Of a DNA stretch of 15,035 bases, positions 672 to 11,390 are shown piece after piece. The DNA comes from Nitrospirota bacterium (lineage in GTDB: Bacteria > Nitrospirota_A > Leptospirillia > Leptospirillales > Leptospirillaceae): assembly GCA_021795275.1 (NCBI GenBank), contig JAJYPO010000039.1, forward strand, positions 1-15,035. The letters run 5' to 3'. The position numbers and the translations under genes were made by a program. A model generated the notes under the pieces. The model did no database searches, was not told the DNA's origin, and saw nothing but the letters and a program-made list of their open reading frames with translations. Numbering within the stretch: the first letter of the stretch is position 1; each line of letters opens with the position of its first letter.

Positions 672-948
672 TCCTCTCTTAAATCCCGCCTCCGGGAGCC
701 TTCCGGAGCGTGGTCCTTCCCGCTCGCCCGGGGGGGGGTCCCAATACCGTGCGCCAGAGCCGATCCGGAATTTCCTGTCTGTTGGACATTTAAAAATATT
801 GGTGTATCCTTTTCATTGAAAGAGTTAAGGTGGAAAAAATTAGCAGAACAAAAAGAATTTGTCTGGCAAAGTCTTATTATTTGATTTGAAAGAATTCTTC
901 TTAAAGATCATTAAAATTTATTGATTTAAAAAAGAAATGGAGAGATCG
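672..948. promoter_or_regulatory. AT-rich divergent intergenic region
   Basis: This spacer separates the leftward lipoprotein from the rightward decapeptide-repeat gene. From about 780 to 936 it is strikingly AT-rich, while all flanking coding sequence is GC-rich, as expected of a promoter region. Visible elements are a TATTAT box (875-880, 5 of 6 to the -10 consensus but with no good -35), a TTGAAA box (886-891) with only weak -10 matches downstream, and a 10-bp palindrome AAGAATTCTT (890-899). There is also a direct repeat TTGATTT at 881-887 and 921-927, exactly 40 bp apart. A run of nine G (730-738; nine C on the lipoprotein sense strand) lies on the lipoprotein side. No single promoter can be assigned with confidence. 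Confidence 0.4.
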
Positions 949-1317
949 ATGGAACCCGGAAAGACCACCTCGACCCTGGAAAAGTTCCGCGCCTTCATGA
1001 CCGAACTGACCTACGTCCGCCCCTCCATGTCAGACCTCGACCGCTTCAAGGCCCTGACGGTCGAGATGGAGCGGTTCCGCACCTTCATGGGGGAAGTGGA
1101 AAAGTTCAAGCTTCTCCTGGCGGAAATGGACCGGTTCCGGGCCGTGTTCGCCTCCGAACAGGACCGCATGAAGAGCCTCATGGCCGAAATGGAACGTTTC
1201 CGGTCCTTCATGGAGGAGATGGAAAAGATCCGGCCCTTCATGAGCGATCTCGAAGAGTTCCAGAGCGCCCTGGAGGAGCTCGGGCGCTTCAAGGCCTTCA
1301 TGGCGGAGAAACGATAG
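949..1317 (+). CDS. Decapeptide-repeat helical protein, no recognised family
   Basis: I do not recognise this 122-residue protein. After nine N-terminal residues it consists of eleven tandem 10-residue units and a final KR. The consensus is [LM]-[ED]-[RK]-F-[RK]-x-F-M-x-[ED]; example units are LEKFRAFMTE, MERFRTFMGE, MERFRSFMEE and LGRFKAFMAE. One extra residue follows the sixth unit. Hydrophobic residues recur at unit positions 1, 4, 7 and 8 with charges between, which predicts a continuous amphipathic helix, probably a coiled coil. It has no Cys, no Trp, no signal peptide and no membrane segment, so it is probably cytoplasmic. I chose the ATG at 949 because GGAG lies 6 nt upstream (939-942). 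An in-frame ATG at 937 has no ribosome site and would add four residues. It is the only plus-strand gene and converges on the branching enzyme. It could be a scaffold, filament or granule-binding protein, but nothing here decides that. Confidence 0.75.
   Translation: MEPGKTTSTLEKFRAFMTELTYVRPSMSDLDRFKALTVEMERFRTFMGEVEKFKLLLAEMDRFRAVFASEQDRMKSLMAEMERFRSFMEEMEKIRPFMSDLEEFQSALEELGRFKAFMAEKR
976..1308 (+). repeat. Eleven tandem 30-bp coding repeats (10 residues each)
   Basis: The units start at 976, 1006, 1036, 1066, 1096 and 1126. After a 3-bp insertion they resume at 1159, 1189, 1219, 1249 and 1279. The period is clear in the protein, but the DNA units differ at many codon positions. They therefore look like an old duplication series held together by protein-level selection, not a recent slippage repeat. 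Confidence 0.85.
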
Positions 1318-1383
1318 GCCAGGCCAGGACCTGGCCCCCCCGGTTCCATGCCCTCCGTCACCGGGCCCTGTCCCCTCCTCCTG
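1318..1383. other. Convergent 3' junction with a small hairpin
   Basis: This 66-bp gap lies between the stop of the repeat gene and the stop of the branching enzyme. It holds a 6-bp stem GGCCAG (1322-1327) and CTGGCC (1331-1336) with a 3-nt loop, followed by a C run on the plus strand. There is no U-tract on either strand, so it is not a canonical intrinsic terminator, although both genes must end transcription near here. Confidence 0.4.
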
Positions 1384-2973
1384 TCAGTTGAGGGGCAGAA
1401 AGACCGAAATGTCAAGGTCCGGAAACAGTGCATCCCGGCCCCGGACCTCCTGAAAAACATCCTCCCGGAACCGGCCTGAAACCAGCATCTCCCGGAGGGC
1501 CCAGAACTGATAGAGGTGTCCTTTCAGACGGTCGACGGCATACTCCACCATGGTTTTGGTGGTCATGATGAAGGGCCAGTCGGAACTCTGGGCCAGAAGA
1601 AGCTCCCGGCCCATCTGGTTTGCGATCTCGCGCTCGCGCCCCCGGTATTTCCCGGCGTGCTCCGACAGACGGACCATCTCCCGGGCCGCCTCGAACAGGG
1701 GTGGATAGATCCAGTCGTTGGTCCCGTTCATCCAGAATTCATAATACCCGTTCTCCCCCCACGACGACGGCTCGGGATCCCCCGACGACGCCGGAATTCC
1801 CGCCCGCACAAGCTCGACCGGCGTGTGGACTTCGACCGTGTTCTGGCGGGCCACCTCCCGGAAAACCTCCTCGAGGAAGTTCACCCCCTCGAACCACCAG
1901 TGGCCGAAAAGCTCGGCATCGTAGGGACAGACCACCGTCGGAGAAATCCCTAAGGTTCCGGATAGGCCCCGGATCTGGGCGGTCCTCCGTTCCACGAAAT
2001 CCCGGGCATGTTCCCGGACGCGGTTCTGGGCCCATGCCGGATTGTAGACCTCCTTCTGGTCCGTGGGACCGGTGATCCGGTGGTATTTGAGCCCGGTCAT
2101 GCCCCGGGGACCATCGGTATGGAGATAGGGGCGAATATAGGCGTAGTCGAGGTCGTAGCCGATGTCGCGGTAGAAGTCCCGGTAGTCGAAGTCCCCGGGA
2201 TAGCCTTCCTTGGCGCTCCAGACCTGCCGTGAGGATTCGGGGTCGCGAGCGAAGGCCCAGACCCCGGCCGGGGTGACAAGCGGGGCGTAGACCCCGGCCG
2301 GAGGCCTCGGGTCGGCATAGAGGAGACCATGGGCCTCCATGAAAAAGAACCGGAGCCCCTCTTTTTTGAGGATCCGGTCGAGCCCCTCGTAATAGGCGCA
2401 CTCCGGGAGCCAGATGCCTTGGGGAGCCCGTCCGAAGACGCGGCGGAAGGTCGAGACGCCGACCCGGACCTGGGCCTCGGCCGATCCCGGAACTTCCTGG
2501 AGAAAGGGCAGGAATCCGTGGGTCGCCCCGCAGGTGATCCCCTCGAGGGACCCCGATTCCATGTGGCGGCGGAAGGCCCGGGTCAGATTTCTTCCCAGAT
2601 CCTGCCGGTAGACCCGGTCGAGGAATTCGAGATGGTCTCGGTAGAAACGCGCCACGCCATCGAACTCCGTCCCCCGGGTCCGGACCACCTCCCTCTCGGA
2701 CAGCTCCCGGAGCAGGGAGAGGCGTTTCTCGAACCGGCCCATCAGGAGGGGATCCTCCATCATGGAGACCAGGGTGGGAGAGAGTGTCATGGTGATCCGG
2801 AATCTCACCCCATCCCTGTTCAGCCGGTCGAACATGGCCAGAAGGGGAAGGTAGGTTTCGATCAGTCCCTCGAAAAACCAGTTCTCCTCAAGGAAAATCT
2901 CATGTTCCGGATGACGGACGTAGGGGAGGTGCGCGTGAAGAACAAAAACGAGATTTCCCTGATTATCGGCCAT
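1384..2973 (-). CDS. GH57 1,4-alpha-glucan branching enzyme with DUF1957-type C-terminus
   Basis: This cytoplasmic enzyme should transfer alpha-1,4-glucan segments to alpha-1,6 positions in glycogen. The 529-residue product matches the usual length of GH57 branching enzymes. Motif 1 is HAHLPY (13-18) and motif 2 is GITCGATHGFLP (145-156). Motif 3 is GIWLPECAY with the expected nucleophile Glu191, and motif 4 is CPYDAELFGHWWFEG with the expected acid/base Asp352. The C-terminal helical part carries SSDWPFIMTTKTMVEYA, characteristic of the DUF1957 region of this subfamily. I chose the ATG at 2973 because AAGGGAGG lies 6 nt upstream and motif 1 then starts close to the N-terminus. A longer reading from 3117 would add 48 residues of atypical sequence that contain hairpins. 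It follows the aldolase in the same direction after a long leader, so it may have its own control. The older label alpha-amylase would be less precise. The call is firm on family and strong on activity. Confidence 0.9.
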   Translation of the reverse strand: MADNQGNLVFVLHAHLPYVRHPEHEIFLEENWFFEGLIETYLPLLAMFDRLNRDGVRFRITMTLSPTLVSMMEDPLLMGRFEKRLSLLRELSEREVVRTRGTEFDGVARFYRDHLEFLDRVYRQDLGRNLTRAFRRHMESGSLEGITCGATHGFLPFLQEVPGSAEAQVRVGVSTFRRVFGRAPQGIWLPECAYYEGLDRILKKEGLRFFFMEAHGLLYADPRPPAGVYAPLVTPAGVWAFARDPESSRQVWSAKEGYPGDFDYRDFYRDIGYDLDYAYIRPYLHTDGPRGMTGLKYHRITGPTDQKEVYNPAWAQNRVREHARDFVERRTAQIRGLSGTLGISPTVVCPYDAELFGHWWFEGVNFLEEVFREVARQNTVEVHTPVELVRAGIPASSGDPEPSSWGENGYYEFWMNGTNDWIYPPLFEAAREMVRLSEHAGKYRGREREIANQMGRELLLAQSSDWPFIMTTKTMVEYAVDRLKGHLYQFWALREMLVSGRFREDVFQEVRGRDALFPDLDISVFLPLN

Positions 2974-3028
2974 GTCATGCCTCCCTTGGTCATCCACCCG
3001 ACGGATCCGGATCAGGCGGTTTTTCTTT

Positions 3029-3053
3029 AAAAAAGTCTGCCGGGCCGGTGACT
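3029..3053 (-). terminator. Putative intrinsic terminator or attenuator before the branching enzyme
   Basis: Read on the minus strand, AGTC pairs with GACT, and an inner CCG pairs with CGG around a GCC loop, with a small internal asymmetry. Six T follow immediately (A run at 3029-3034 on the plus strand). It lies about 55 nt upstream of the branching-enzyme start. It could stop read-through from the aldolase or act as an attenuator. Confidence 0.4.
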
Positions 3054-3064
3054 CCCCGATGAAA

Positions 3065-3097
3065 GGCTCAGCCCCCGTGGGTCTTCGTGGCTGAGCC
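3065..3097 (-). repeat. 9-bp perfect inverted repeat in the branching-enzyme leader
   Basis: GGCTCAGCC (3065-3073) and GGCTGAGCC (3089-3097) are exact reverse complements with a 15-nt loop. On the minus strand the stem is followed by TTTC only, so it is a weak terminator on its own. It lies just before the next hairpin (3053-3029), an arrangement that could form a two-stem leader structure. Confidence 0.5.
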
Positions 3098-3258
3098 CCG
3101 CCTGAATCTTTCCCCAAAATGAAAGCTGCCCCTCACACACAAGGCGGCCGGATGAGGAGGTCGCCCCCCGCCCCCGGGGCTCCCTTCCTCGATGGGATTT
3201 CTGAGGTCCTTCCTTCTCCGGGGAGCGCTGACCTTTCCGCCTTTGGGACCCTCAGCCG

Positions 3259-3289
3259 AAAAGAGGACGTTTCATATTCTCCGGTCCTC
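3259..3289 (-). terminator. Weak intrinsic terminator candidate after the aldolase
   Basis: On the minus strand GAGGAC (3289-3284) pairs with GTCCTC (3268-3263) across a 15-nt loop, followed by TTTT. It starts about 43 nt after the aldolase stop. The stem is short, so termination would be partial at best. Confidence 0.35.
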
Positions 3290-3331
3290 CCGAAACAGGC
3301 CTCCCATGGATCGGGGGCCGTTCGGGGATCA

Positions 3332-4699
3332 CTATCGGTTAACTCCGAAGTATTTTTCCAAAAGCCCCGAGGTCCCCGAGAGTCCGAGTTTCGAAAAGAG
3401 CGTGACGAAGCGTTTCTCGAGATCCTCCATGATCGGATCGAGGACGGTCTCCGGAAGGGAGGAGAGCTGCCTTTTGAAGGGACCGTAGGTCCGCTTCCGG
3501 TTCTTGTAGAAGAACTGCTCCTCCGTCTCACCCGCCTTCCGCTCCCCGGCAAACTCCTTCGTCATGAAGGCTTCCATCTCCTTTTTGAGGCCCGCCGGAA
3601 AGGCCGGGTGATCGAAGACGGCGTTCTGGAAACCGGTCGCGAGGTGGATTTCCAGAGTCTTCACCCTGGGAAAGTGGTCGAAGAGGTCCTCCGGAAGGGT
3701 CGAGGCCCCGTGCTGGACCGCCCCCCCCATGTGGTAACGGCTCCGGGCCCGCTCTCCTAAAGCCTCCAGAGTCGAAAAGTCGAGGCTCACGGGGGCGATG
3801 CGTCCATCGGGAAGCGGAACTCCCCCATGGGAGGTCCCGGTCTGGACGCTGATCTTGCTGATCGGCACATCCCGGGAATCCAGACGCGCGAGTTCATCGC
3901 CGTAGACCTCCATGAAGGCCTCGAGTTCCTCGGGAGAGGAGTTCTCCTTGCCCACCTCCCCGATCTCCCCCCCCACCGAGACCGGAAATTTCTCTTGGGC
4001 AGGGGTTATCTGCCGGATGAAATGGGTCAGAAGGGCCGTCATCTTTCCGTTTTCCCTCTGCTGGTCGCGAAGGTCCGGGGGGTCGAGGGTCACCAGGGTC
4101 GAGGCGTCGATGTCGATGTTCCGGTAGCCGGCATCGATCGATTCCTGGATGAGTTTCTTGAGGCTCTCGATTTCCCCGGCGGAATCCCGGGCGTAGTTCT
4201 TTGCGTTGAACTGGTAATGATCTCCCTGAATGAAAATCGGCCCGGTGTGGTTTTCTGCCAGGGCTCCGGCCATGACGAGGCCCGCGTATTCCATCGGACG
4301 CTGGAAGGAATACCCGATTTCGCTCTTGGCGAGCTCGAAGATGACCGGCCCTCCCTTGATGGATCGCATGGCCCGGAGAACGCGTCGCACGGTCAGAAAG
4401 GTGAGTCCCCGGATATTGATGGCCGGAACGGTGAATCCCCCGGCCTCTCCGCGGCCGATGGCCCGGTAGAGGGGTTCGATGGAGGCCAGGGTGGCCCCTG
4501 ATTTCAAAAAGGACGAACGGAGAAGGCGAAAGGACTGTCCCCGGATTCCCGCCTCCGGATGGAAGACGAGATCCTCCACTAGGGACTCAAGATAGTCCTT
4601 CCGGAGCCGGGGAAGGTCGGTCACCTCGGGCCACCCCCCGGAAAATTCGGCGACATACCGGTATTTTTTCTGCCAGTCGTTCACGGTCTCCTGGGTCAT
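3332..4699 (-). CDS. Class II (metal-dependent) ketose-bisphosphate aldolase, fructose-bisphosphate type
   Basis: The family cleaves or forms fructose 1,6-bisphosphate or tagatose 1,6-bisphosphate with a divalent metal, in glycolysis or gluconeogenesis. The protein has 455 residues. The TIM-barrel signals are FTVPAINIRG (from about 89), a catalytic Asp-His pair in IQGDHYQF (160-161), Glu245 in GGEIGEVG, metal-ligand His291 in QTGTSHGG, and His330 in GGAVQHGAS, where phosphate is bound. It is longer than most family members (about 280-360 residues): roughly 90 residues precede the barrel and a charged tail of about 80 follows it. The ATG at 4699 has AGGAGG 7 nt upstream; the ATG at 4729 has none. 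It follows the GalT-like gene after 85 nt and may share its transcript. Substrate (fructose or tagatose) cannot be fixed from sequence. In this setting it would feed triose phosphates toward hexose and glycogen. Confidence 0.85.
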   Translation of the reverse strand: MTQETVNDWQKKYRYVAEFSGGWPEVTDLPRLRKDYLESLVEDLVFHPEAGIRGQSFRLLRSSFLKSGATLASIEPLYRAIGRGEAGGFTVPAINIRGLTFLTVRRVLRAMRSIKGGPVIFELAKSEIGYSFQRPMEYAGLVMAGALAENHTGPIFIQGDHYQFNAKNYARDSAGEIESLKKLIQESIDAGYRNIDIDASTLVTLDPPDLRDQQRENGKMTALLTHFIRQITPAQEKFPVSVGGEIGEVGKENSSPEELEAFMEVYGDELARLDSRDVPISKISVQTGTSHGGVPLPDGRIAPVSLDFSTLEALGERARSRYHMGGAVQHGASTLPEDLFDHFPRVKTLEIHLATGFQNAVFDHPAFPAGLKKEMEAFMTKEFAGERKAGETEEQFFYKNRKRTYGPFKRQLSSLPETVLDPIMEDLEKRFVTLFSKLGLSGTSGLLEKYFGVNR

Positions 4700-4740
4700 G
4701 CCTGGTCCTCCTGGGGTAAGAATGGTCATATTTTGTCTTG

Positions 4741-4762
4741 CGGCCGGAAGTCCGGCCGTTTT
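4741..4762. repeat. Stem-loop between the galT-like and aldolase genes
   Basis: CGGCCGG (4741-4747) and CCGGCCG (4752-4758) form a 7-bp GC stem with a 4-nt loop. Four T follow on the plus strand only. For the minus-strand genes there is no U-tract, so it is more likely a transcript-processing or stability element than a terminator. Confidence 0.5.
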
Positions 4763-4784
4763 GCGGAACCTTTTCTCAGGGCGC

Positions 4785-5789
4785 TCAGGGAAGCGAAATC
4801 TCTCGAAGAAACTGGGCCGCCTCTTCCGGAGGGGTGGGATTGATGTAGAACCCGGTTCCCCATTCGAATCCGGCCACCTGCGTGAGCGTCGGCATGATCT
4901 CGAAATGCCAGTGGTAATAATCCTCGGACCCCTTGTCCTGGAGCGGGGCGGTATGGAGGATGAAGTTGTACGGCGGATTCATGAGGGCCTTGTTGAGACG
5001 CCTTAAAACATCGAGAAAGATCTTGGCCAGAGCCTCGTATTGGGACTTCTGGCCTTCCTGGAATGAGGCGGCGTGACGCTTCGGCAGGATCCAGACCTCG
5101 AAGGGAAAGCGGGAGGCGAAGGGAGTGATCGCCACAAACTCCTGGTTCTCCGCGACGAGCCGGGAGCCGTCCATGACCTCCTGCCGGATGATGTCGCAGA
5201 AAATGCAGCGTTCCTTCTCCTCGAAATGGGTCTTGGCCCCGACCATCTCCTCGATCACCACCGTCGGGATGACGGGAAGGGCGATAAGCTGGCTATGGCT
5301 GTGTTCGAGGGAGGCTCCGGCCGGTTCCCCGTAGTTCTTGAAAATCATGATGTACCGAAACCGGGCGTCCTTCTTGAGATCGAGAATCCGGTCACGGTAG
5401 GCCCAGAGGACATCCTCGAACTCCTTCCCAGAAAAGGTCGCCAGGGTCTTCCGGTGTTCGGGGGTTTCTATGATCACCTCGTGCGCCCCGATCCCGTTCA
5501 TCTTGTCATAGAGACCCACCCCTTCCCGGTCAAGACTCCCCTCGACCATCAGCGCAGGAAACTTGTTGGGAACGACCCGGAGGGTCCAGCCAGGAGTGTT
5601 GGGGAGGCTTCCCTGGACCCGGTAGGCCAGGACCTCGGGCGGAGTCTTGTCCTCCTGGCCCGCACAGAGGGGACAGACCTGATAGCGGTATTCGTTCTTG
5701 AAGGTCTTGTAGTCCACAGGTCGTCGGCTCCGGGCCGTGGAGATGATCACCCAGCGACCGACGATGGGATCCTTTCTGAGATCAGGCAT
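4785..5789 (-). CDS. galT: GalT-family nucleotidyltransferase (hexose-1-phosphate uridylyltransferase-like)
   Basis: GalT enzymes swap a nucleotidyl group between a sugar 1-phosphate and a nucleotide sugar through a His-NMP intermediate. The 334-residue protein begins with MPDLRKDPIVGRWVIIS, the family N-terminus. The first zinc site is C39-x-x-C42 (CPLC), His103 in GAHEVIIE and His163. The active site is H-S-H-S-Q (163-167) with nucleophile His165. A second CxxC (CIFC, 195-198) and HWHFE (293-297) lie in the C-terminal HIT-like half. The ATG at 5789 overlaps the end of the upstream GH57 gene by 8 bp (ATGCCTGA) and has AAGGAG 8 nt upstream, so translation is probably coupled. No galK, galE or galM lies nearby, so a Leloir galactose role is not supported by context. 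Work on ADP- or UDP-glucose linked to glycogen is a reasonable alternative. The family call is firm; the substrate is open. Confidence 0.85.
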   Translation of the reverse strand: MPDLRKDPIVGRWVIISTARSRRPVDYKTFKNEYRYQVCPLCAGQEDKTPPEVLAYRVQGSLPNTPGWTLRVVPNKFPALMVEGSLDREGVGLYDKMNGIGAHEVIIETPEHRKTLATFSGKEFEDVLWAYRDRILDLKKDARFRYIMIFKNYGEPAGASLEHSHSQLIALPVIPTVVIEEMVGAKTHFEEKERCIFCDIIRQEVMDGSRLVAENQEFVAITPFASRFPFEVWILPKRHAASFQEGQKSQYEALAKIFLDVLRRLNKALMNPPYNFILHTAPLQDKGSEDYYHWHFEIMPTLTQVAGFEWGTGFYINPTPPEEAAQFLREISLP

Positions 5790-7944
5790 GGGGCTGGCTC
5801 CTTGAATCAGGTCCCGTAAATATCGTGATTCTGGCCTCTCCTCCCAGGAGGAAGGCGATTGGAATCGCATGGATGAAAAGGGTTCCCTGAAAAATCCGTT
5901 CAAGGCCCGATTCCGACAGGGAGACCGTTTCGATCGGAGCGTGGATCAGGCGGACGATACCGGAAAGCCGGGCCAGAAAGGCGGTCTTCGACCAGGAATC
6001 CTCCCCCCTGTACCAGCCGACCTCCCCGTGTTCCCAGGGCTCGTCCCAGAGAAAGGGGTCCTTCCGGCCGTCCACATGGATCGTGCGTCCGGAATCATGC
6101 CCGGCCAGAAGGGTGAGGGGGAGCTCCGCAAAGAGGGCCCATTCCTTCCATGAATCGGGCAGTTCCGTCACTCCGGGGGAGGACAGGGTCCATGTGACCG
6201 AAAAATGGTCCTCGAAGAAGCGGTAGCCCTTCGACAGGAGGAAGGGAATTCCCGCCACTTCGCCCGCTCCTTCCATCTGGAGCCGGCCGTCCGGTCCGGA
6301 GACGACGCGGTAGGGAGTCCGGCCCATGTCGGGGGACAGGGCCGATCCGTCGAGAAGTCCCGGGGCAGGAGTTCCTATGGGAGCAAAGCCTTCGGAAAAG
6401 GCCCGGCGGGGACGGCGGTCGTAGATGATCCCCTCCAGGGCATGGCCTGTGTCGCCGACCGGTCGGTCATGGATCGAGGCGATTCCCCCTTCGCTGGCTG
6501 TCGCTCCCTCCATTTTCTTCCGGTCCTCCCGGTGGCGGATGTGGTAGGCCTCCTCCTGGCGGGTCAGGGTGTTGGTCAGATGAAATCCTGTGATCCGGTC
6601 GTCCCATTCGAGAACGCTTCCGCCATAACGGGGGGTGATCCAGAGATTGTAAGAGCGTTGCCGGACAAAAAATTCCCTCGTTCCGTCCGCGTCGAAATCC
6701 CCTTCGAGAAAGGCCGGCACAGGAAGCTTTCCTTCGGATTCCATGCGCTGTTCGGCCATGAGAAGGTTGGCGGAGGCTTCGTGCCGGAGATTGGACAAAT
6801 AGATTCCCCCGAAAAGGCCGTGCCAGTAAACGTCGTTTCCCTGGGCCTTGAGGTAGGGGGACAAAACGCCCTCCGGAGGCTCCGAGGAGGGCCAGGCCTC
6901 CCGCAGGAAGGCTCCCGTCAGGAGCATCCGGTGGTAGAGACGGTGGACATCAGGATACTTGACCAGGAAGTTTTCGAAGATCCCCCCCCGGAAGAGGACC
7001 CTGAGGTCGGGATCGGCCCCTTCCCGCTCCCACTTCAGGGACCACTCGTGAAAGGAGTGGCTGATCCGGGCCGGCAGGGCCCATTCCATCATTTCGGTGT
7101 AGGAGGCATTGGGAAGGACGGCGATGCCGGTGGGAGTCCGGTCGGCCACCACCTCCCCCATGGAGGCCACCCGGAGCCATCCCGACTGGGCCGAAAGCAT
7201 AGAAAAGAGATGCTCGAGGTATTTCTCTTCCCAGACCCAGCGGTAGGTCTCAGGCCAGATGCCAAACTTTTCCCCGTCGTCGGCATAGGTCAGGACCCGC
7301 CCTCCCCGCGCCCGCCTGTCGAGGAAGGACAGGAGCTGGTCGACCTGGCGGAAGGGAATCAGGTACCGAAGCTCCTTGGATATCGGAAAGATCCGGAGGG
7401 GTGACCCCTCCCAGGAGACGGTGTAGTAACCGTGAAGGTCTTCGTCGTCGATACCGGCCAGGTGAAAATGATGGTCGTCCAGGGGCGCATAGGTCAGCCC
7501 CAGGGGAAAAAGTCTCGCCGGCAGATCCGTCTCCCACACCCGTTCCGCCAGCCAGAATCCCTCCCCCGAACTTCCGAGCCTCGTCTCGAGGTGGCGCCGC
7601 ATGAGGTCGACCTGGCGCCGCTGGTCGGCCGACCGGAGCCAGCAGAAGATCGGCTCGTAGAATCCTCCCCCGATGACCTCCGCCTGACCGCGCTCCACCA
7701 TTTTTTTGAGCCGGTCCAGGAAGGACGGCTCGTTCGACTCGATCCACTCGAGAAGGGGTCCGGTATAGTGGAGGGAGGCATGGAGGGTCTCGTACTGCCA
7801 CAGAAGATCAAGGGTGGGCCGGTAGCACCGGTCGAAGGATTCCCGGAAGACATGGGAAAAATTTCCTGCCGGCTGGTGGTTGTGCAGGACAAAGACCATC
7901 GTTGCGCGATGGTCCCCGTCCGGACCGGCCTTTTGCAATTCCAT
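5782..7944 (-). CDS. GH57 4-alpha-glucanotransferase / alpha-amylase type, with DUF1925 and DUF1926 regions
   Basis: The 720-residue protein fits the 4-alpha-glucanotransferase subgroup of GH57 (Thermococcus type), which disproportionates alpha-1,4-glucans. Motifs are HNHQP (21-25), GGGFYEPI (92-99), WLAERVWE with expected nucleophile Glu134, DDHHF (156-160) and TYADDGEKFGIWP with the acid/base Asp of the pair 222-223. The middle region with NDVYWHGLFGGIYL is typical of DUF1925. The C-terminal beta-sandwich part (ITPRYGGSVLEWD onward) is typical of DUF1926. There is no signal peptide, so it acts in the cytoplasm on storage glucan or maltodextrin. The ATG at 7944 has GGAGG 7 nt upstream and starts one base after the stop of the preceding gene (TGAGATG). 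An ATG at 7980 would overlap that gene and has a poor ribosome site. Sequence alone does not separate transferase from hydrolase activity. Confidence 0.88.
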   Translation of the reverse strand: MELQKAGPDGDHRATMVFVLHNHQPAGNFSHVFRESFDRCYRPTLDLLWQYETLHASLHYTGPLLEWIESNEPSFLDRLKKMVERGQAEVIGGGFYEPIFCWLRSADQRRQVDLMRRHLETRLGSSGEGFWLAERVWETDLPARLFPLGLTYAPLDDHHFHLAGIDDEDLHGYYTVSWEGSPLRIFPISKELRYLIPFRQVDQLLSFLDRRARGGRVLTYADDGEKFGIWPETYRWVWEEKYLEHLFSMLSAQSGWLRVASMGEVVADRTPTGIAVLPNASYTEMMEWALPARISHSFHEWSLKWEREGADPDLRVLFRGGIFENFLVKYPDVHRLYHRMLLTGAFLREAWPSSEPPEGVLSPYLKAQGNDVYWHGLFGGIYLSNLRHEASANLLMAEQRMESEGKLPVPAFLEGDFDADGTREFFVRQRSYNLWITPRYGGSVLEWDDRITGFHLTNTLTRQEEAYHIRHREDRKKMEGATASEGGIASIHDRPVGDTGHALEGIIYDRRPRRAFSEGFAPIGTPAPGLLDGSALSPDMGRTPYRVVSGPDGRLQMEGAGEVAGIPFLLSKGYRFFEDHFSVTWTLSSPGVTELPDSWKEWALFAELPLTLLAGHDSGRTIHVDGRKDPFLWDEPWEHGEVGWYRGEDSWSKTAFLARLSGIVRLIHAPIETVSLSESGLERIFQGTLFIHAIPIAFLLGGEARITIFTGPDSRSQPHA

Positions 7945-7945
7945 C

Positions 7946-10105
7946 TCACAGCCTCCAGATCGATTTGACAAACTGTTCATCGGGAACCTGAATCGACAGG
8001 GTGTGGCCCCGGGGACACTGGTCGACCATCGTCTCTCCCTCGTAGAGCTCGAACAGGGCTCCGAGCCACTCCCCGGGTTCGAGACCTAAACTCCGGTAAG
8101 GGATGGCGATTTCCCCGATCTTCCGGAACCCCCATCGGGCCTTTCCCCCCTCCGTTCCTTCGAGCGGGATCTCCCCCGTTCCCGGAACCAGCGGACAGAG
8201 GATCTTCGTTTCGTGGTGGTCGAGAAACCTGAGGGCAAGCGTGGGATCGTGCCGCTCTTCAGGTCGGTAGTTGTCGTCGAAGTCCACCCGGATGTAAAGA
8301 GTCTCCTCGTCAAAGCCGTAGTAGATTGCCGCCAGGGGGGTCTCCCGGAGATACATGGATCCCTGGAGCTTGTGGTTGTCAAAGAATCCGGCCCCGGTCC
8401 ATTCGAAATAATGGGTGACCTCTCCGTCGATGATCGGCCTTATGAAGTCCACCGGAAGGATGACCCCCGTCCCCATGTCCGTCTCCCGGATGGGCTCGTT
8501 CAAGAGAATGGGGGGAGACAGTCCCAGAATCCGGTAGACATTCTGCTGGTGGACACGGAAAAGGCGGTCGAACTCGGGGGACTGGAGGCTCTTGAAATCG
8601 TCCCCGTACCACCAGAACCAATCGGAGCCTTCGGCGGCGAAGAGTTCCCGGCGGGCCCGCTCGACCGCGTCCGCGGGTATCTTTTTCCCCGGGTCCCCCT
8701 TCGTCGCCTCCGCAAAGGCCATCCGGGTCTCCCGGAGGAAATTCCAACCCTTGTTGTCCTCGGGGTGGCCGATCCAGATTTTGAAGTCGTGGTTGATCCA
8801 TGATCCCGTGGCAAGCCTGTCGATCGACCGGGCAGGCGTTTGCGAAAGGCTTCCCGAGACGGTCTCTGTCCGGAGGAAGGGGTGGGCCGAAAGTCTTTCG
8901 AAGACCGTTTTCAGGAAGTGGAACCCTCCATCGGCATAGGCTTCCCAGGGATTTTCCCCATCGAGGATGATCGGGATCGTGGCATTTCTTCCTGCGGACT
9001 CTTCCCGCTTCGCGATCTGTTCCATGTGTCCCAGAAGGTCTGAAGCCGCCTCCGTCCCGTTGTACCGGGCATAGGCGAATCCGATCCGGTCCGACAGGTT
9101 TCGGTCCCGGAAGACCATCCTGACCTTCGCCCCGTCGATGGTGACCTCGTAGGGTTCGTACAGGCTCCCCTCCTTGAGGTTGGCCATTTCCCGGGAGATG
9201 AAAAGAATGTCCTCGTCGGAGGCCATCCACTGGAGACCCGCACCCTGGGCGATCCGAACCACCTCCGGAGAGACCGACCCCTCGGACGGCCACATTCCCT
9301 TCGGACGAAGACCGAAGACCTCCTCGTGGCGTCTCAAGGCACTTTCGACCTGGAGGGCGGCATCTTCCGGCCAGACGAATTCATCGGGAAGGGAGAGGTT
9401 GGGGTGGGCCCTTCGGGCTGTCTTGGACGAGATCAGAAGGGGAAGGATGGGATGGAAATAGGGGGAGGTCGAGATCTCGATCCGCCCTTCCTGCGCCAGG
9501 GAGCGGTAGAGAGGGACCAGTTCCTTCAGGATCGTCCTCTGGAGATCGAACAGGGCCTTCTTGTCGGTCTCGGTGAAGTTTGCTCCCTGACTGATCCACT
9601 GTTCGACCTCCGGATGGCGGGCCCGGGCTGCATAACCGAACCAGGTGAGATTGAACCACATCTGGAGGTCCAGAAAGTCCTGGGCATTCATCTGGGAGAC
9701 CACCCGCCCGAAATCGGCATCCTTCACCGGCTGCTTCGACTGGACCTTCTGCCACAGGAAAAGGTATCGCGGGTAAGGCTTGATCATGGTTTCGTAGGCG
9801 CAGGAGAAGAAGTTCCGGGCCAGGAAGATCTTGTCCCCGTTGTCGAGGTCGGTGGAGGACTTGAGGGAGAGCTCCTGGTAGGAGTCCACCACCTGTCCCT
9901 CCCCCAGGGCCAGGATCTGGTCGAGCAGAATCGGTACGATGTTCACCGTCTGGCGGATTTTCGGGAAGAGGCCGGCCATGTGGGGAATGTCGTAGTACCC
10001 CCGGACGCCGTGGAGACGGACCCATGGCAGGACCATTTCGTTGGTCAGGGGATCGAAATAAGAGGGCTGGTGCATGTGCCAGACAAACAGAACATTCGCG
10101 TTCAA
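7946..10105 (-). CDS. GH57 glycoside hydrolase (amylopullulanase-like) with C-terminal beta-rich domain, TTG start
   Basis: This 719-residue enzyme belongs to the large amylopullulanase-like branch of GH57. It shows HMHQP (10-14), SPYFHPILPLL (214-224), GMWPSEGSV with expected nucleophile Glu275, and ILDGENPWEAY with expected acid/base Asp382. EGSDWFWWYGDD (492-503) is typical of the helical part of this branch. Residues from about 548 (YFEWTGAGFFD, then YGFDEETLYIRVDFD) look like a DOMON/CBM9-type beta-sandwich seen at the end of related proteins, probably a glucan-binding module. There is no signal peptide, so it should work in the cytoplasm on glycogen or similar glucan. The start must be the TTG at 10105: a TGA lies five codons upstream in frame, and the next in-frame ATG falls inside motif 1. 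AGGGA lies 6 nt before it. glgC ends 22 nt upstream. The precise bond specificity is unknown. Confidence 0.85.
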   Translation of the reverse strand: MNANVLFVWHMHQPSYFDPLTNEMVLPWVRLHGVRGYYDIPHMAGLFPKIRQTVNIVPILLDQILALGEGQVVDSYQELSLKSSTDLDNGDKIFLARNFFSCAYETMIKPYPRYLFLWQKVQSKQPVKDADFGRVVSQMNAQDFLDLQMWFNLTWFGYAARARHPEVEQWISQGANFTETDKKALFDLQRTILKELVPLYRSLAQEGRIEISTSPYFHPILPLLISSKTARRAHPNLSLPDEFVWPEDAALQVESALRRHEEVFGLRPKGMWPSEGSVSPEVVRIAQGAGLQWMASDEDILFISREMANLKEGSLYEPYEVTIDGAKVRMVFRDRNLSDRIGFAYARYNGTEAASDLLGHMEQIAKREESAGRNATIPIILDGENPWEAYADGGFHFLKTVFERLSAHPFLRTETVSGSLSQTPARSIDRLATGSWINHDFKIWIGHPEDNKGWNFLRETRMAFAEATKGDPGKKIPADAVERARRELFAAEGSDWFWWYGDDFKSLQSPEFDRLFRVHQQNVYRILGLSPPILLNEPIRETDMGTGVILPVDFIRPIIDGEVTHYFEWTGAGFFDNHKLQGSMYLRETPLAAIYYGFDEETLYIRVDFDDNYRPEERHDPTLALRFLDHHETKILCPLVPGTGEIPLEGTEGGKARWGFRKIGEIAIPYRSLGLEPGEWLGALFELYEGETMVDQCPRGHTLSIQVPDEQFVKSIWRL

Positions 10106-10121
10106 AAGGAGTCCCTTTCAG
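10103..10121 (-). promoter_or_regulatory. Ribosome site and TTG start of the first GH57 gene
   Basis: On the minus strand AAAGGGA is followed by CTCCTT and the TTG start. An in-frame TGA just upstream excludes any earlier start. The weak start codon could lower output relative to glgC on the same message. Confidence 0.6.
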
Positions 10122-10127
10122 CGGGTC

Positions 10128-11390
10128 TTATTCCCGGTTCTCCCGGATCCACCGTTCGATTCCCTCCTGGGTCACCACCACGATTCCCCCTGTGGAGACA
10201 AAAAAGAATTTTTTGTCCTCCTCATGGTTGAATCCGACCCGGAGGTCGGGGGGAATTCGCACGTCCTTTTCGACAATGCACCGGTTCAGTCGAGCGTACC
10301 GGCCAATGTCGACCCCGTTGAAGATCACCGACTCGGAGACGTGGGAATAGCTGTTGACCCGTACGCTATGTGAGAGGATCGACCGGTCGATCTGTCCCCC
10401 CGAGATGATCGAGCCCCCGCAGACGATCGAATCGGTCGCCACCCCCACCCTTTTGTTCTTCTCGTCGGCGAAGACGAATTTGGCCGGGGGAACCTGCGGA
10501 CGGTAGGTCCGGAGGGTCCAGTAGGGATTGTAGAGATTGAAGGAAGGGGTCACCGCGACCAGATCCATGTTGGCTCTCCAGTAGGCATCGATGTTCCCGA
10601 TATCCCGCCAGTAGCCCTTCTCAAGGTCTTCCATCCCAGGAATGGTGTTTTTGCTGAAATCGTAGACATTGGCCTTCCCCTCGGAGGCGAGGTGGGGAAG
10701 GATGTTGTGCCCGAAGTCGTGCTTGGAGGAGGAGATCTCCGAATCCTCCCTTAAGACATCGATCAGATCCTTCGTCCGGAAGATGTAATTTCCCATGGAG
10801 GCCAGGGCGGTCGTCCCACCGGGAACGGTCGGCTCGGGGTCATGGGGCTTCTCCACGAAATCACGGATTCTCCCGTCATCCGTCCGGATCACCCCGAACT
10901 CCCGGGCTTCAGCAAGAGAAACAGGAATCGCCGCGACGGTGACTGACGCTCCCGTCTCGACGTGATGGTCGAGCATCTGCCGGATGTTCATCTTGAAGAT
11001 GTGGTCCCCGCCAAAGATGCAGACATGATCGGGCATTTCGTCAAGAATCAGGTTCATGTTCTGGAAGACGGCGTCGGCGGTTCCCTGGAACCAGTGGGGG
11101 CCTGTCCGCATCTGGGCAGGGACAGGATCGATGTACTGGTCGAGAAGGGGCGAGAGACGCCATCCCCGGGAGAGATGGGTGTTGAGGGAGTGGGACTTGT
11201 ACTGGGTCAGGACCTTGATCTTCGTGAATCCCGAGTTGACGAAGTTCGACAGGACAAAATCAATGATCCGGTAGGCGCCACCGAAGGGCACCGCAGATTT
11301 GACCCGGTCGGTCGTCAGGGGAAAAAGGCGTTTCCCCTCCCCTCCGGCCAGGATGATTGCCAGAATGTTTTCCCGGTCCCGATGATCCAT
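10128..11390 (-). CDS. glgC: Glucose-1-phosphate adenylyltransferase (ADP-glucose pyrophosphorylase)
   Basis: GlgC makes ADP-glucose from glucose 1-phosphate and ATP, the committed step of bacterial glycogen synthesis, in the cytoplasm. The 420 residues match the family length. Visible motifs are the nucleotide loop LAGGEGKRLFPLT (14-26), HWFQGTADAV (99-108), FGGDHIFKM (126-134), the glucose 1-phosphate motif FVEKP (178-182) and GYWRDIGNIDAYW (259-271). The C-terminal part (about 300-400) has the hexapeptide pattern of the left-handed beta-helix domain that carries allosteric sites. The ATG at 11390 has GGAGG 6 nt upstream. It stands between a small membrane protein (21-nt gap) and the GH57 gene (22-nt gap), so it is probably the main enzyme of this operon. 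ADP-glucose specificity fits the family motifs. No glgA is seen in the window. Confidence 0.95.
   Translation of the reverse strand: MDHRDRENILAIILAGGEGKRLFPLTTDRVKSAVPFGGAYRIIDFVLSNFVNSGFTKIKVLTQYKSHSLNTHLSRGWRLSPLLDQYIDPVPAQMRTGPHWFQGTADAVFQNMNLILDEMPDHVCIFGGDHIFKMNIRQMLDHHVETGASVTVAAIPVSLAEAREFGVIRTDDGRIRDFVEKPHDPEPTVPGGTTALASMGNYIFRTKDLIDVLREDSEISSSKHDFGHNILPHLASEGKANVYDFSKNTIPGMEDLEKGYWRDIGNIDAYWRANMDLVAVTPSFNLYNPYWTLRTYRPQVPPAKFVFADEKNKRVGVATDSIVCGGSIISGGQIDRSILSHSVRVNSYSHVSESVIFNGVDIGRYARLNRCIVEKDVRIPPDLRVGFNHEEDKKFFFVSTGGIVVVTQEGIERWIRENRE

Follow-up and report, generated by a model that had tools for sequence, protein, structure and literature searches.

A protein of eleven consecutive decad repeats and the supercoiled helical rod that it may form

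Of all protein folds, the coiled coil is described as the best understood. A short gene in the window analysed here (the whole stretch of DNA, 15,035 nucleotides) raises the question of what a chain can build when its residues recur every ten positions, or three helical turns, from one end almost to the other. According to the available text of PMC4786415, 10/3 = 3.33 is the assumed lower limit of coiled-coil periodicity.

The gene and its upstream region

The features discussed below are the following, with the basis of each in brackets:

949-1317, plus strand: gene of the decad-repeat protein, 122 residues, with stop codon TAG at 1315-1317 (ORF, orthologues, dN/dS)
976-1155, plus strand: decad units 1-6, residues 10-69 (all 13 aligned sequences have a hydrophobic period of 3.33-3.34 here)
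1156-1158, plus strand: codon of E70, one 11-residue step near the middle of the predicted helix (invariant in 13 of 13)
1159-1308, plus strand: decad units 7-11, residues 71-120 (all 13 aligned sequences have a hydrophobic period of 3.35-3.36 here)
1060-1200, plus strand: most conserved stretch, residues 38-84 (35 of 47 columns invariant in 13 sequences)
782-811, plus strand: promoter-like element TTGGACATTTAAAAATATTGGTGTATCCTT (conservation across the nearer subgroup, 8 sequences aligned)
812-948, plus strand: AT-rich leader ending in a GGAG ribosome-binding site (composition, alignment)
1316-1337, minus strand: weak terminator-like hairpin between convergent genes (hairpin search)
L017:6720-7820 and L023:5386-7740, minus strand: copies of the divergent neighbour that were scanned (Pfam, one copy of each kind)

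The ORF at 949-1317, noted earlier, is present in the window. Its frame is free of stops in all 14 sequences compared, which is true of no other frame, and the dN/dS values of orthologous pairs range from 0.03 to 0.29 (17 pairs computed). At all 13 aligned loci (the window and 12 others) the 949-type start is preceded by a GGAG ribosome-binding site. Judged by these features of the sequence, the decad-repeat ORF is a real gene. An alternative in-frame ATG at 937 would yield a protein of 126 residues, and a start of this kind is found in 4 of the 13 fetched loci; as it overlaps the GGAG in the window it was rejected, and 949 is the likely translation start.

A spurious ORF, with the repeat arising from sequence bias and the real gene lying opposite at 1011-1460, would account for the presence of a 149-codon ORF on the other strand. 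The opposite frame is indeed nearly open, with 0-2 stops across the gene in each of the 14 sequences, and for this reason the absence of stops cannot by itself settle the matter. That frame is clean, however, in 5 of the 14 sequences, as against 14 for the sense frame, and neither the dN/dS of the sense frame nor the conservation of the GGAG and of a promoter-like element further upstream fits a chance ORF. The opposite-strand ORF was rejected on the dN/dS, the GGAG and the distribution of stops, and we regard it as hardly credible. Another frame of the plus strand is open across the gene in 8 of the 14 sequences; such additional open frames over 949-1317 are a by-product of codon make-up and can mislead automatic gene calling. 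The third-position G+C is 85% in the decad gene and 79% in the single neighbouring gene compared with it, which gives no sign of a recent foreign origin.

The initial annotation had assigned the gene an AT-rich promoter region of its own. This is borne out by a G+C content of 27% over bases 800-948, against 60% for the whole window, and by the conserved promoter-like element at 782-811. When up to 3 mismatches were allowed, this element was found once in each of the 8 genomes of the nearer subgroup and in none of the 5 genomes of the other, in which the five sequences carry a related GGTGTATAAT upstream of the decad gene. Part of the spacer of the element is also conserved (AATATTGGTGTATCC, with one mismatch in L008), which exceeds the needs of an ordinary sigma-70 site. 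From its sequence the element may also be a regulator's binding site; further copies that could point to co-regulated genes were absent from the 13 genomes, so that no functional link was obtained. The hairpin between the convergent genes has little standing, since shuffles of the region give on average 1.6 such sites against the 1 found.

Repeat architecture, distribution and neighbourhood

Residues 10-120 consist of eleven 10-residue units and one additional residue, E70, which lies between units 6 and 7. Units 1-6 are LEKFRAFMTE, LTYVRPSMSD, LDRFKALTVE, MERFRTFMGE, VEKFKLLLAE and MDRFRAVFAS, and after the extra E units 7-11 are QDRMKSLMAE, MERFRSFMEE, MEKIRPFMSD, LEEFQSALEE and LGRFKAFMAE. 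The BLOSUM self-similarity of the chain reaches z values of 8.6, 8.5 and 6.0 at lags 10, 20 and 30, whereas the best z at any lag in 2000 shuffles was 4.5; a further peak at lag 41 (z 4.9) is expected because that comparison crosses E70. The eleven tandem decads of the initial annotation are therefore recovered, although the step at E70 means that they are not perfectly regular. Its consensus can be refined over 13 sequences to [LM]-[ED]-[RK]-F-[RK]-[small]-[FL]-[ML]-A-[E], in which small residues predominate at position 6 and Ala at position 9, the least conserved of the ten. The units had also been said to diverge at the DNA level while selection kept the protein pattern. The divergence is confirmed, with means of 33% of residues and 57% of bases shared between units (range for bases 40-80%), and suggests that the array is probably old; the evidence of selection comes instead from the dN/dS of the orthologues. 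For 8 of the 11 window units, the unit of the same number is among the best matches in the distant L011 copy. Both P25 and P96 are invariant in the 13 aligned sequences, and the invariant columns of residues 38-84 include exposed charges in addition to core positions.

A single-sequence search of 41 genomes (E<=0.01) gave 13 matches, all among the 14 genomes of the nearest genus, and profile searches returned the same 13 from 21 genomes of the family (E<=0.01) and from 395 genomes of the phylum (E<=1e-4). The one genome of the genus that was missed, G011, cannot be counted as a true absence because its contig ends inside the adjacent branching-enzyme gene (match at bases 3-461). The orthologues are 58-100% identical to the window protein and span 122-124 residues from the 949-type start, with length variation only at the C-terminal end. 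The alignment used throughout has 13 rows, for the window protein and all but one of the 13 fetched loci. L001 was omitted, its protein being identical to that of the window over the 121 codons compared, and so was the fragment P0002 (see below). Orthologues with differing repeat counts, which had been proposed as something to look for, were not found, as all 13 aligned sequences have eleven units; nor was any loss of the decad, the hydrophobic period of 3.33-3.36 being kept in both halves of every one. Unit number and period are thus maintained across the genus despite up to about 42% residue change.

Beyond the genus, the profile search found no decad gene in 7 sister-genus genomes or in 374 further genomes of the phylum. 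The ORFs of at least 40 codons in the sister-genus flanks (L034-L038) gave no convincing profile match (best E 0.37). The branching-enzyme gene was recovered in 5 of these 7 genomes, and in L036 it lies about 140 bases from the next gene, presumably, by its position, the membrane-fusion partner of the RND gene, leaving no room for a decad gene. Given these flanks, the decad gene is probably either an innovation of this single genus or a gene that other lineages have lost. A scan with two peptide patterns of one genome for each of 84,980 species yielded 51 stretches, of which 13 encode a relative, all in Nitrospirae bacterium MAGs. Among viral contigs 20 stretches matched the patterns with no confirmed relative, and plasmid and phage searches gave none at their limits. 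Of 5.8 billion proteins, searched by a method that requires shared 5-residue words and can therefore miss distant relatives, 29 were candidates with P0001 as query, none at E<=0.01; with the alignment as query, 1 of 2175 candidates passed E<=0.01, and it was still the only one at E<=10. This sequence, P0002, is an 87-residue piece on a 1102-base contig, and its first residues are unlike the decad family. This protein search gave no full-length relative; the full-length copies come from MAG contigs and genome DNA.

The genes flanking the decad gene on both sides are on the minus strand, in agreement with the earlier remark that it stands alone on its own. Downstream and convergent is the gene for a GH57 1,4-alpha-glucan branching enzyme, in the window and in 13 of 13 named loci (the family was named by Pfam on the window's copy and the other loci were assigned by ORF clusters); in L022 about 0.8 kb with two short ORFs separates the two. 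The divergent gene upstream is lipoprotein-like in the window and 8 loci (a single copy, from L017, was scanned and gave DUF4384) and encodes a GH15/glucodextranase in 4 others (again a single copy scanned, from L023), the contig of L025 ending before this position. This neighbour differs by subgroup, the lipoprotein-like gene belonging to the nearer and the GH15/glucodextranase gene to the other. Next comes an RND-type efflux gene, present in 9 of the 13 loci (family from L017); L016, L020 and L025 end earlier and L022 has other ORFs. In the window, Pfam matches over 1384-11390 on the minus strand delineate a polyglucan-metabolism cluster composed of the GH57 branching enzyme, a class-II aldolase-like protein, a galactose-1-phosphate uridylyltransferase-like protein, two more GH57 proteins and a GlgC-like nucleotidyltransferase. 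It is followed by what we take to be ATP synthase genes. The ORF table of the loci, which keeps the longest non-overlapping ORFs, shows 7 copies of the decad gene, since a longer ORF at the same place displaces it in the remaining loci; the gene counts given here come from other searches.

The hydrophobic stripe and models of the predicted helix

The spacing of the hydrophobic residues had been read from the window as decad and not heptad, and the spectra uphold this. In all 13 aligned sequences the strongest period is 3.33-3.36 in each half of the chain, with peak powers of 11.8-17.0, whereas the power at 3.5 is 0.0-0.2 over residues 10-69 and 2.7-4.1 over residues 71-120. The canonical heptad coiled coil, with a period near 3.5 along the chain, is not seen; only 40-residue windows that cross E70 approach it, at 3.44-3.46. 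Over the whole chain the strongest of the periods tested is 3.4 (power 4.45, against 2.16 at 3.333 and 0.11 at 3.667), because E70 adds one 11-residue step. A hendecad or right-handed periodicity near 11/3 is equally lacking, given the power of 0.11 at 3.667 and the single step of eleven. What the chain does show is ten residues over three turns, with E70 raising the mean to 101/30. Spectra of the same kind give 3.50 for E. coli Lpp and 3.52 for ZapB. As a control of the method, and not a survey of rarity, 48 E. coli proteins from three regions chosen for known coiled coils were examined in the 3.27-3.40 band. None matches the power of the window protein, the best being MukB, at 10.6 for windows of 50 residues (window protein 16.9) and 11.7 for windows of 60 (window protein 16.5). 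MukB itself (L039, E. coli mukB from residue 890) has a stretch of 50-60 residues with a period of 3.40-3.42, below the heptad value.

A helical wheel of 108 degrees per residue yields a hydrophobic resultant of 0.36, which rises to 0.62 once the phase is reset at E70; by comparison with the latter, wheels of 100 or 102.9 degrees give 0.10-0.14. Drawn on a straight alpha-helix, the hydrophobic face would shift from one unit to the next by -59 to -101 degrees at nine of the ten steps and stand nearly still, at +1 degree, where E70 is crossed, so that it would go round the helix about twice in all. Position 5 of the unit (88% basic in 13 sequences) lies at about +88 degrees from the centre of the core and position 10 (85% acidic) at about -92 degrees. 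The acidic position 2 (94%) adjoins basic position 5 and the basic position 3 (78%) adjoins acidic position 10, and taken as classes both acidic and basic charges point away from the core. The highest Kyte-Doolittle mean of any 19 residues is 0.43, which indicates no transmembrane stretch.

The chain is predicted to be helical almost throughout. AlphaFold2 models of the window protein (residues 9-121, mean pLDDT 84, pTM 0.38) and of the divergent L011 copy (residues 8-123, mean pLDDT 87, pTM 0.40) each show one helix, of 113-116 residues across the two; both are monomers built from 13 close sequences and, with pTM of 0.38-0.40, are silent on assembly. The proposal that the protein belongs to no known family is supported by all the searches. 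The 20 Pfam and 5 NCBIfam matches listed at E<=1 are under their curated cut-offs, including those to Spectrin, ASD2 and SpiroCoCo_C; the best Pfam match, to HMMR_C, has an E of 0.00033 and 21.3 bits against a cut-off of 28.6. Halo_GVPC reaches E 0.59 and 10.9 bits (cut-off 22.4), and no phasin model is among the 20 Pfam matches listed. PHROGs and PADLOC gave nothing at E<=0.01, the PDB sequence search gave 6 weak rows at E<=1 (best E 0.26), and Foldseek found no PDB match.

From the computed periodicity and conservation we infer oligomerisation, a parallel order of the chains, a supercoil and a cellular role. The gene product would be a cytoplasmic, almost wholly alpha-helical rod, in which several identical chains might lie side by side and in parallel, wound in a steep left-handed supercoil that would keep the stripe L/M1-F4-F/L7-M/L8 buried. 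Basic position 5 on one flank would meet acidic position 10 of the neighbouring chain, a pairing that would favour parallel over antiparallel packing. The invariant E70 might act as a relaxed joint, a single 11/3 step between two overwound halves, and the whole could serve as a rod or spacer with a fixed length of about 15 nm, in which the conserved middle (residues 38-84) could be a docking site to itself or a partner, or a nucleation site. The constant number of units in 13 of 13 aligned sequences speaks for such a rod. We prefer this self-assembling rod with a decad core, tentatively and at somewhat less than an even chance; a scaffold, filament or coat role for it is a guess.

The chief difficulty of the supercoiled rod is strain. 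With an unstrained helix of 3.63 residues per turn, a mean period of 101/30 and assumed radii of 4.9-7.4 Angstrom, a Crick estimate requires supercoil angles of 26-42 degrees, in comparison with 12-18 for heptads, and these angles are worst for more than two chains, the case to which the breadth of the hydrophobic arc (four positions in ten) points; if the helix were overwound to 3.5 residues per turn, the angle needed would fall to 13-21 degrees. The lower limit of 10/3 assumed in the available text of PMC4786415 also counts against the rod, as does the finding there that the stammers examined strain into a short 3-10 helix. Furthermore, acidic position 2 and basic position 3 blur the complementary flanks formed by positions 5 and 10, and the invariant P25 and P96 could kink the helix.

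The strongest rival is free of this strain. If the helix stays straight, its hydrophobic stripe winds around it like a screw, by about 80 degrees per 15 Angstrom or one turn in 4.5 decads, and each decad could dock a separate partner, the protein being a ruler or hub for a left-handed spiral. An unstrained alpha-helix is then allowed, and the regular turn per unit, the fixed number of units (13 of 13 aligned sequences) and the conservation of exposed charges together with the core in the middle 47 residues would all be accommodated. A linked partner gene is missing, however, as the conserved neighbours, on the other strand, encode metabolic enzymes, a lipoprotein and an efflux pump, and self-packing is the simpler account of the charges at positions 5 and 10. 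Such spiral docking is unlikely in our estimate.

With turns at P25, around S69-E70 and at P96, the chain might instead fold back to form a helical hairpin or a small bundle, either as a monomer or as a dimer. The invariance of both prolines would suit this, E70 with its jump in phase could be one of the turns, and the low pTM does not fix the tertiary arrangement. Against this, a face drifting by about 80 degrees every ten residues would give inconsistent bundle faces over helices of 25-40 residues, both models run the helix through E70 with a mean pLDDT of 94-96 for residues 61-80, and the segment S69-E70-Q71-D72-R73 is without glycine or proline. Folding back therefore appears rather improbable. 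An amphipathic coat on a membrane or a storage granule, for instance of polyglucan made by the adjacent branching-enzyme cluster, might be suggested by the branching-enzyme gene, which in the window and 13 of 13 loci is the first conserved gene beyond the decad gene and convergent with it, although adjacency across strands is possibly synteny alone. At 100 degrees per residue the chain is amphipathic over short lengths, with a mean moment of 0.37 for 18 residues; over 36 residues, however, this moment drops to 0.20 while that at 108 degrees stays at 0.42, so that the chain could not lie flat as one straight helix. As no granule or gas-vesicle coat family of Pfam reaches its cut-off (Halo_GVPC included), a coat is the least plausible of these structural alternatives and quite improbable.

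Comparison with known systems

The decad protein resembles the stammers and decads of heptad coiled coils in placing ten residues over three turns, with the strong left-handedness expected of that spacing (available texts of PMC4786415 and PMC9369452). Those stammers, however, as described there, are three-residue insertions in a heptad coil, whereas here eleven decads are joined by one 11-residue step with no heptads. The available text of PMC9369452 gives a decad example in PDB 3aqb, decomposed as [4,3,3], and for period lengths above 15 states that no 'demanding' decomposition, with neighbouring stammers or stutters, was identified. No report of a consecutive-decad protein was found in the literature searched, the scope of which leaves most subscription journals outside.

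Bacterial alpha/beta coiled coils of the Tcar0761 type share with the decad protein a short non-heptad tandem unit, and Tcar0761 has 14 repeats (available text of PMC4786415). Their unit is a nonad, in contrast to the unit of ten here, whose models are helical throughout, and the beta-layer consensus given in that text, [aliphatic]-A-T-K-[polar]-[DE] recurring every 9 or 6 residues, is absent, there being no A-T-K in the 122 residues. E. coli Lpp and ZapB are likewise small and mainly helical with a strong hydrophobic period, which in them is the 3.50-3.52 of the heptad range and not the 3.33-3.36 of the decad protein, and their families are not among the 20 Pfam matches listed for it. Crescentin and other bacterial intermediate-filament-like proteins offer a conceivable parallel as cytoplasmic, all-helical scaffolds. 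Crescentin, however, is a long protein built on heptads, and its stutter breaks the pattern in the opposite sense (available text of PMC10873595); it is absent from the 6 PDB sequence rows at E<=1.

If the decad protein is a coil, it extends the periodicity known from stammers, and if it is not, it is an unexplained repeat helix. The most specific form of the first view is a naturally occurring coiled coil in which decad follows decad over nearly the whole chain, and which would form a stable homotypic supercoil at 10/3 with E70 as a strain-relief joint. This is doubtful but possible; if true, the assumed limit of periodicity would mark a regular architecture and no longer just an isolated defect. 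With its eleven decads and a mass of about 14.5 kDa, the protein makes the 10/3 limit directly testable. The gain might be a steep left-handed rod for designers, or another use of a winding stripe, such as spiral docking.
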